In this document: positions 24,967 through 28,100 of the stretch, piece after piece
Layout: each line of letters starts with the position of its first letter
Position numbering within the stretch: the stretch's first letter is position 1
Assembly (NCBI GenBank): GCA_963855995.1
Contig: OY979730.1
Coordinates: 1,116,501-1,180,500 of the forward strand
Reading direction: 5' to 3'
Length of the DNA stretch: 64,000 nucleotides
From: Muricea muricata
Taxonomy: Eukaryota > Cnidaria > Anthozoa > Malacalcyonacea > Plexauridae
Position numbers and translations under genes: made by a program
Notes under the pieces: model-generated
Told to the model about the DNA's origin: nothing
The model's input: only the letters and a program-made list of their open reading frames with translations
The model's database searches: none

Positions 24967-25157
24967 CTACACTAAATTATAGTCTTTGAGGTGCTGCTGT
25001 AAAATACTGTCTCTCACGGCGGCGAAAACAAACTTTATATTTTCTGTGTCGGTGGCGCACGTGAAATGCGAGTAGATTGGCTTTTCTGGATCGGGATTCA
25101 AATTCACGAACATTTTCAACACAAACTCACGAGCAGCCATAGCATCTCTGGGCTCGC
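24967..25157 (-). CDS. GNAQ: G-alpha-q alternative terminal exon 7a
   Basis: 191 nt from an AG acceptor at 25158-25159 to a TAG stop. With the single G left by exon 6 it reads [12 protein letters not shown], then [26 protein letters not shown] and [15 protein letters not shown]. It has exactly the length of exon 7b with no indels, and 46 of 62 residues agree. It carries a non-canonical Gq tail: Gln, His and Asp at positions -9, -8 and -5, where 7b and vertebrate Gq have Leu, Asn and Glu. The nucleotide-binding TCAT motif is intact. To use it, the splicing machinery must skip 7b and its poly(A) site. Confidence 0.93.
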
Positions 25158-28100
25158 CTAAGATAAAAACAACAGTGTTATACTGCAGGACTCAATGGAC
25201 GTGTCCTTATGTGTAACTAGATCAAAGAGCATCAGATATATAAGATCATAGGCGGCACATTCGTGACTCGTAACCAGGATATTACTGATATTTTGATTTC
25301 CAAAAATGCCCTCTTGTGGCGTCAACATGGATAACTTGCTGGGCTAATGAACTATATATACGGAAGGACAACTCCAGTTCATGAGTTAAAACACAAAATG
25401 GCGCAATTTGAAGAAGGAACCATCATTGTATCAGTGTAGAATTTCGCATTTTGCAATCTTACAATCCTCCTTCAATATTACTTCTCTGCCAATTTATTCT
25501 TCCATTCTCCCACACTTGACATGGTGATATTAAGGTGGCTTAGTGTAGTTTTAAAACCTAGCTAGCTACATCTACAAGAATCTAATTTATATATATATTT
25601 ATATGTCGCGAGAGATTTTTCGCGCAATTGGGACCAAACTAAGCCAACTTGTACAGTTCTAGAATGACAATTATTATTATTATACACTATTACACTTATA
25701 TAAGTTAAGATATTATTTAGCATAAACCACGGATCGCGTCGTTGCTATAGATACAATGGTTCGACCAATCACTGACGAGCGCCAAGGTGTCTTGGGCCCA
25801 GTGCACAGGGGGCTCTAATATCACCTCTATACGATACCCCTAACATTTTAATTCAACATTCAAGATATCAAACTGTACAGATCATAACTAACAAGGCAAA
25901 CTTTGAGGACACTTCAAATCAGTATTAGAAATTGACCACTTCATTTAAAAACTGACAGGAGAGACACGCAAGGAAGTGAAATAAATATACATTTAACTGC
26001 ATCTATTGAACATTCGTAAAATTTGCTATCCTACGTGCTATGAATGCTTAAATGTCACGTTTTGCAAAGGAAAGACAGACAAACTCTGCACAGGATGGCG
26101 ACCGGGCTAATTAAACTCTCGCAAGTTTTAAGCCCTCTCAAATCTTCCTACCAGTTCTCTCATGGTCCGTTCCTAATAAGTTGAGGCACTGATGGCAAAG
26201 GCACTCCATATGAAATGGAAGTTGAATATGTGTGCGGTTTAGTACGTTGACGATATTCTTTGACATTACAAAGATTTTAAGATCACAAAGTTCAAACAAA
26301 ACTAAATTTCTTTCAAAAAACAGAGGGCTGGCACCAGTTGAAACAGCGAACTACTCTAACAAGTCGGGCTATATTTAACTTGGTGTGACAATGTTAAATG
26401 CGAATTTACTACCTATGGGCCGCTTCTACTCGTTCCGTTTTGAACTGGCAATTCAATTTGACCGATGAAATAGAATGTCGAAAATTGTTCAAGAATTGCC
26501 ATCTAGACAATACTACACCGTCAAATATGCTTTCGTTACAACAGTTTGGACAAAATGCGTCTTGTGTTTGCATAAATCTATAGTCTATACACTTTTCATT
26601 TGAGAAAGCGGCAATTTAAAATTTCCACACAGACATAACTTCTTTCTCTATTTTCAACAATAGATTTTTCGCGAATTTGTTCGGATCACGTGAAAACAAC
26701 GTTTTTTGGTCGAGGCTAAACTTGATCCTTTTGAAATTTAAGGGCAACCTTTACTTGAAAGCGTTGTTTAGTGATCATACAAGTCTGTTATGTCGATGAC
26801 AATAAAATATTTGGATGATTATGGAAACTATTTTCTAAGCAATCGAGCATTCACAACTTGCGCATGAATTGTATCTGAACAACACTCGCGACTAATGCGA
26901 GCAATGGAAAATCTTAATTACTGAAATACTAACGATTTAATTTCCTGGTGTTAAGTAAGAAAAGGGTTTTTCCCGTTTTCGTTGACTAAATAGTTTTACA
27001 ATCGTGCATTCATGACAAAAGGGACACATGGAACCCGGAATAAATTCCTACAAATCTCAATCGTACACATTCTAAACACGCACACAAATAAAAACAAAAC
27101 AACTACGCTGTCAACTATCTTATCGACCTCCCTCCCCCGAAAAAACAAAATGGCTGCCTTCAAAACATCAGTACGCCACCTTAAGTTAATTATGATCTCT
27201 ATAGCTTATCTCCACATGGGCAAGATATCAGAGGATAAAGCCACCTGGCAGGAATAAAATCCCCGAAGGTGAAAAATCGCCGATCGGGTTAAGTTCGCTA
27301 GCGGTCGGTCGGCCATGCTTTAGTCTTTTAGTCGTAGTATACAGCACGGTTTACAATGTCATTTGATTTCAAGTTTTTTGCATTTCTTACAACAGGATGT
27401 CGGGCGCACCAACCAGGAGTAAAATGACTGTAGTTCACAGATCGTGCTAACGTCTCAAACCAAATTGTACTCTTTCAAGTTTAGTTGTAAAATTGTGTCT
27501 TTCACGGCGGCAAAAACGAAACGAATGTTCTCCGTGTCCGTGGCGCATGTGAAATGCGAGTAAATAATCTTGTCCGTATCCGGATTCAAATCTACAAACA
27601 TTCTTAAAATGAATTCTCGCGCGGCTTGGGCGTCCTGTTGCGGACCTGCAAAGAAAATAAAAAGATGGAAGACACATGTTCCCCTCTACAGGTTAAGCTA
27701 CGCAATTTATATCCTAGCTATAACATCCAGTTTTGACAGGGGTTAAAAACTAGAGATCAGTGATTGAGCCTGCGGCCTTTCAGTTACTGGTCAGCACAAT
27801 ACGAACAAACAAGGGTAGCTACCTCATTTCCCCACGCTAAAGTGGATTTGCGTACGAAACTCAACATGTGTACTACCTCGTTCTAAACAAATCCACTCAG
27901 CCAGGGGAAGTGAAGTACGTGCCAAACAAAGAGATAGATTCACGTGCGTTCTTTATGAGTCTTGGTCATAGGCAATCAAGTGTATCGTTGTTAAGTAATC
28001 AACCGGCGAGACACAAATCTAATTGCAACAATATGGGCCATGAAACCTTCAGCATTTCTCCACTAGCCTAATATTTCGAATTGCTTTTGCTCCTCAATTT

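Follow-up and report, generated by a model that had tools for sequence, protein, structure and literature searches.

The window analysed here, that is the whole stretch of 64,000 nucleotides of Muricea muricata DNA, carries on its minus strand a gene for a G-protein alpha subunit of the Gq family (G-alpha-q), the encoded protein having Gq and G11 as its best PDB matches (E 5e-196). The gene begins with a start codon at position 37871 and has seven coding exons in each predicted transcript, which is the count given for preGNAQ in the available part of a survey of deuterostome G-alpha genes (PMC5896119). The coding part of exon 1 (37745..37871, 127 nt) ends at the donor gtaagt and joins in frame to exon 2 (37372..37556, 185 nt), which is followed by exon 3 (37057..37211, 155 nt), exon 4 (36565..36693, 129 nt) and exon 5 (32711..32840, 130 nt), these four having been placed by exon search and by spliced translation. 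Exon 6 (31942..32095, 154 nt) ends in TTGAGG followed by gtaagtaa, with its last base at 31942, and supplies the donor common to either of two last exons. The first of these, exon 7b (27455..27645), is of the canonical type, and the second, exon 7a (24967..25157), is of a derived type and lies 2.3 kb beyond 7b with a stop codon of its own. GT-AG junctions were found at all six common coding exons, and the acceptor of each last exon follows a T-rich tract (ttctttgcag before GTCC in 7b, tttatcttag before GCGA in 7a). Exon 6 leads into both last exons in one and the same phase, the two bases after the AG completing a glycine codon, and the joining of exons 1-6 to either one gives 1071 nt encoding 356 residues with one terminal stop. 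The original prediction of one Gq gene with two interchangeable last exons was thus borne out in its coordinates and splices, including the statements that both exons are 191 nt long with the stop included, share their phase, keep the TCAT motif and the YNLV tail and differ by no indels.

Hexamers of the poly(A) type were also located on the minus strand, where a 6-kb stretch has four AATAAA and two ATTAAA. One AATAAA lies between 7b and 7a (25493..25498) and is a candidate poly(A) signal of the 7b form, and another lies downstream of 7a (24418..24423) and is a candidate for the 7a form; both ATTAAA are situated in the interval from 7b to 7a, and the remaining two AATAAA are at 23300 and 22176. 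Hexamers of this type can also arise by chance, and the AATAAA positions weakly suggest one poly(A) site per form.

The two last exons have diverged extensively at the nucleotide level. They are identical at 47/63 residues when the split glycine is counted (46/62 as originally given), and among the 48 identical codons, stop included, 27 are spelled differently, with third positions agreeing at 26 of 64, in keeping with the third-position differences noted at the outset. The Nei-Gojobori method returned a pS of 0.85 and a pN of 0.16, and the synonymous sites are so near to saturation that there is no finite NG86 dS. In a neutral simulation, in which 7b was mutated until its third-position divergence equalled that observed, none of 2000 runs ended with 16 or fewer residue changes (minimum 35 versus 16 observed), and 3.2% remained free of an internal stop. 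When 2 kb on each side of the two exons were compared (blastn, E 1), the exon body was aligned together with matches of 13-26 nt at E 0.63 only. The near-saturated synonymous sites, the simulations and the unalignable flanks together indicate an old duplication whose protein products have been selected for most of the time since, as had been proposed; the estimate of selection is an average since the duplication, on which a recent disuse of 7a would leave no mark.

Exon 7a is still recognizable as part of a G-alpha protein. It matched the last exon of Gq/G11 in the PDB (E about 1.6e-28) and the Pfam G-alpha family at E 1.8e-12 with 47.5 bits, against 49.8 bits for 7b; the curated cut-off of 48.8 bits, which 7a falls just below, is set for the whole domain. 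Compared with mammalian Gq, identity amounts to 60/63 residues for 7b, 49/63 (78%) for 7a and 225/289 (78%) for exons 1-6, so that 7a shows roughly the conservation of exons 1-6 and 7b is unusually conserved. At the 16 sites where the two exons differ, mammalian Gq has the 7b residue at 13, the 7a residue at 2 and a third residue at 1, and on this comparison 7b is judged to be near-ancestral and 7a derived. Pattern scans of viral contigs with 7a (19 matches) and of prokaryote contigs with 7b (110 matches) yielded no confirmed match, relatives not being expected in either collection.

The 16 differences are found at exon positions 2, 3, 4, 7, 13, 15, 19, 24, 25, 27, 42, 49, 51, 55, 56 and 59, whilst positions 28-41, with the TCAT motif inside, and the final four residues YNLV are invariant between the exons. 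Ten of the differences precede position 28, before beta-6, in and around what we take to be helix 4 and the alpha4-beta6 loop (the helix names are assumed here); the other six are in alpha5 and presumably correspond to residues 338, 345, 347, 351, 352 and 355 in mammalian numbering. Alpha5 is a known receptor-contacting helix. The suggestion that the differences cluster where receptors touch is worded too tightly, and the YNLV tail is unchanged.

What was observed is a single gene with two intact, in-phase and anciently diverged last exons, and no other Gq gene was found. The explanation that we favour, and consider very probable, is that this one gene gives rise to two proteins through alternative choice of the last exon. 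Splicing of exon 6 to 7b would produce canonical Gq, and skipping of 7b with joining of exon 6 to 7a would produce a Gq altered in the presumed helix 4, alpha4-beta6 loop and helix alpha5, the GTPase core, the TCAT motif and the YNLV tail being common to both isoforms. As 7b ends in a stop, 7a and 7b can never both be coding in one mRNA. The arrangement would have arisen when the last exon was duplicated in tandem, after which the second copy would have been kept by purifying selection, and its most likely use would be to tune receptor coupling, and possibly PLC coupling too, in particular tissues or stages, as proposed for insects. We infer that both last exons are transcribed, that the choice between them is regulated and that it has a functional effect. 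By analogy, this explanation draws support from Gq genes of insects and from another G-alpha gene in this genome, of the G12/13 type, whose layout is similar.

Alternative last exons have indeed been published for the Gq genes of Drosophila, Anopheles, Lygus and other insects, and the initial remark that no described Gq gene of this arrangement was known cannot stand as a claim of novelty. In the available portion of one report, the Gq locus of A. gambiae is stated to contain three pairs of homologous exons, H/H* among them, that are alternatively spliced, a pattern shared with D. melanogaster and also found across disparate insect orders; the same source gives five splice forms for Lygus Gq, one of them head-limited, and places the point at which the isoforms part at Pro292 of 353, which is the start of the last exon (PMC4553527). 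For Drosophila Gq, excerpts of a second report describe numerous splice variants and an eye-isoform-specific mutation in 'exon 7A' (PMC5765363). Insect Gq (Drosophila Galphaq/dgq exon 7A, Anopheles AGAP005079 exons H/H*, Lygus LhGq1-4) thus resembles the Muricea gene in having two homologous last exons at the same join of one gene, and in these accounts one exon combination is head- or eye-specific. The Muricea gene shares with the insect type its two homologous last exons of the same phase, each with a stop, but alternative internal exons were not found: insect Gq has further alternative exon pairs, whereas in the window no credible duplicate of any Muricea Gq exon from 1 to 6 was found. The extent of recoding also differs, since Lygus q1 and q2, which are distinct only after Pro292, are given in the available text as 93% identical over 353 residues, or about 25 changes, compared with 16 between 7a and 7b. 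The literature searched yielded no account of a cnidarian Gq gene with alternative last exons.

With respect to what the exchange might achieve, the original reading, that one gene could switch its choice of receptor by splicing, is partly supported by the positions of the changes. A tuning of receptor coupling by the choice of 7a or 7b is plausible because six of the differences fall in the receptor-contacting alpha5, but the isoforms are unlikely to differ wholesale in receptor class, given that YNLV is identical in the two exons. A rival of appreciable weight, although we hold it to be doubtful, is that exon choice mainly tunes contacts with the effector (PLC-beta) or with regulators rather than receptor choice; it gains from the 10/16 differences located ahead of position 28, in and near helix 4 as named above. 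It gains too from the fly, where V303, an eye-specific residue encoded in exon 7A, would correspond to exon position 13, which is Val in 7a and Ile in 7b, an assignment made by length that assumes 353 residues for the fly protein, as in Lygus Gq and the listed insect matches. The helix 4 region with V303 is assigned to the PLC interface in the accessible part of the fly study, but the same text reports that V303I rescued the vision of the fly mutant, which makes Val and Ile interchangeable there, that the PLC assignment was inferred from structures and that the association was undetected by immunoprecipitation (PMC5765363). The six differences in alpha5, a receptor-facing helix, likewise count against a mainly effector-directed role.

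Duplicated 3' ends are also known from other G-alpha families, and a deuterostome survey, in the sections available, describes several. Vertebrate GNAO has mutually exclusive exons 7-8 in versions.1 and.2, and, as with 7a and 7b, its duplicated 3' end recodes the receptor-contact region and comprises one copy nearer to the ancestor and another that has diverged (PMC5896119). It differs in that GNAO belongs to the Gi/o family and has two exons duplicated, whereas the Muricea gene is of the Gq family and has one, so that the Muricea gene does not have a 3' end of the GNAO type, with exons 7 and 8 duplicated in a Gi/o gene. Amphioxus GNAS, with alternative last two exons (12-13), is again a case of local exon duplication with alpha5 recoded, but in a Gs gene, and in amphioxus preGNAQ it is exon 5 that is duplicated, not the last exon as in Muricea Gq (PMC5896119). 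For the Gq/11 genes of deuterostomes, those sections of the survey report duplications of exon 4 or exon 5 and mention no duplication of the last exon (PMC5896119).

Since the insect pair and the 7a/7b pair concern the same exon of the same gene, it could be argued that both descend from one exon duplication in the common ancestor of animals, which we regard as improbable. The fly visual exon, in a provisional sequence, agrees with 7a at 5/16 of the differing sites, but it agrees equally with 7b (5/16) and with neither at 6/16, and it is identical to each of the two at 37/63 residues; the comparison has little power, with 63 residues and a provisional sequence on the fly side. A common origin would, moreover, need several losses, as the available sections of the survey record no last-exon duplication in preGNAQ (PMC5896119). 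Independent origins of the Muricea and insect pairs may be taken as the simpler reading, on what is a weak test.

It is a little less probable still that 7a is a relic of the duplication, once in use as a last exon but now skipped in splicing. The concentration of nearly all residue changes on the 7a side, evident from the 13/16, 2/16 and 1/16 division of the mammalian residues, would suit a relic, but 7a has retained an open frame, an intact acceptor and the invariant positions 28-41, and its conservation was reached in 0/2000 neutral runs; a relic that had long been free of constraint would be expected to show stops or a broken site. The weakest alternative, that 7a is part of a second, separate Gq gene, has in its favour the distance of 2.3 kb from 7b and the presence of its own stop, but it is scarcely credible in view of the lack of any other Gq exons 1-6 in the window, in six G-alpha regions or among 27 genome-wide Pfam matches, and was rejected.

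The genome-wide Pfam scan for G-alpha covered 453 Mb; 40 candidates were scored, and the 27 matches contained one Gq set, that inside the window. The exon search, run on the window and on the six G-alpha regions, brought up no further set of exons 1-6 for Gq. When exons 1-6 were compared with the window by tblastn at E 1, one copy of each was returned together with a chance match to exon 5 (E 0.55) that contains a stop. The 7a peptide, searched against the whole genome, gave nine matches, namely 7a itself, 7b (74%), six at 41-53% and one at E 1.77; the six weaker matches (E 1.9e-6 or better) are in or adjoin other G-alpha loci, and among the matches listed in this search the G-alpha genes on C3, on C7 near 1.87 Mb and on C7 near 5.33 Mb have one last exon each. 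The question of whether 7a sits in a separate gene was thus answered in the negative at the scale of both window and genome scan, and with no other Gq last exon or 5' exon set found in the genome, 7a is most likely a real and long-conserved alternative last exon.

A second gene of the same genome appears to have a comparable layout. This G12/13-type G-alpha gene, L014 (C9:669000-678900, plus strand), has one 5' part, made up of a single 5' exon (L014 796-1248) and a single middle exon (1798-1848), and two last exons (3281-3850 and 5909-6478), each of 570 nt, preceded by AG, entered in phase 0 and closed by a stop of its own; whichever last exon is joined, the result is an open protein of 357 residues. 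The best PDB matches of both last exons are G-alpha-12 and -13. Between them 155/189 residues agree, third positions differ at 112/189, and pS and pN are 0.91 and 0.12; none of 500 neutral runs was as conserved and none was stop-free. By these measures the pair is anciently diverged and its synonymous sites are nearly saturated. A genome-wide search with the 5' exon returned one identical sequence, a 52% relative at C9:13330415 and two weaker matches belonging to the Gq gene of the window, and no further L014 5' exon was found in 10 kb of flank at each end. The second last exon has a frame that stays open ahead of the acceptor, from 5708 onwards, which leaves some room for the reading that this exon belongs to a tandem copy of the gene whose 5' end has been lost or whose 5' exon is unrecognised. 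The 52% relative is part of L015 (C9:13322500-13332400), a second, more diverged G12/13-type gene with its own 3' part, which is 52% alike to L014 in the 5' exon and 53-54% alike in the 3' part.

As a kind, the alternative last Gq exon is already known from insects; what may be new is the lineage, a cnidarian, and the pattern across a Gq and a G12/13 gene, the literature search having covered Gq. A cnidarian is also suggested by the sequence itself: there is one GFP-family match, with three TAA inside it that stem from introns or damage, whose best PDB matches are fluorescent proteins of anthozoan type, and the gene lacks a second exon 5 like that of amphioxus. A search for the arthropod cuticle family gave no match, which shows little because it gave none anywhere. 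The matching layout of L014 makes the pattern more interesting than a single Gq gene. We give about even chances to the broader view that in a non-insect animal, probably a cnidarian, paired last exons occur in two G-alpha families, exchanging 63 residues in Gq and 189 in the G12/13-type gene, that both pairs are anciently diverged and selected, and that the repertoire was doubled by duplication of last exons rather than of genes, independently of insects; the same even chances attach to its companion statement that the 189-residue exchange of L014 would span the switch regions and the receptor-facing end. If both Gq forms are made, a single Gq gene could allow an animal to distribute its Gq-coupled receptors, among them opsins, over two G proteins through RNA processing; coral Gq is described, in the part of the report available, as light-responsive via an opsin in vitro (PMC3515558). 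Taken with vertebrate Go, amphioxus Gs and insect Gq, the Muricea Gq gene and L014 would make last-exon duplication a recurrent way of varying G-alpha that can be tested across phyla.

Some other features of the window are recorded here. At 12394-12732 on the minus strand there is a cysteine-rich open frame of 112 residues without a Pfam match at E 0.001. On the plus strand, exons with a DUF1899 match and WD40 matches occupy 61133-63093 and look like a gene that we take to be coronin. The stretches 44444-45416 and 48546-49433 form inverted, near-identical arms (509 nt at 98% and 379 nt at 95%), each with a tandem array of 21-bp units (28 and 24 copies), and they are separated by about 3 kb in which short A/T-rich tandem repeats abound.
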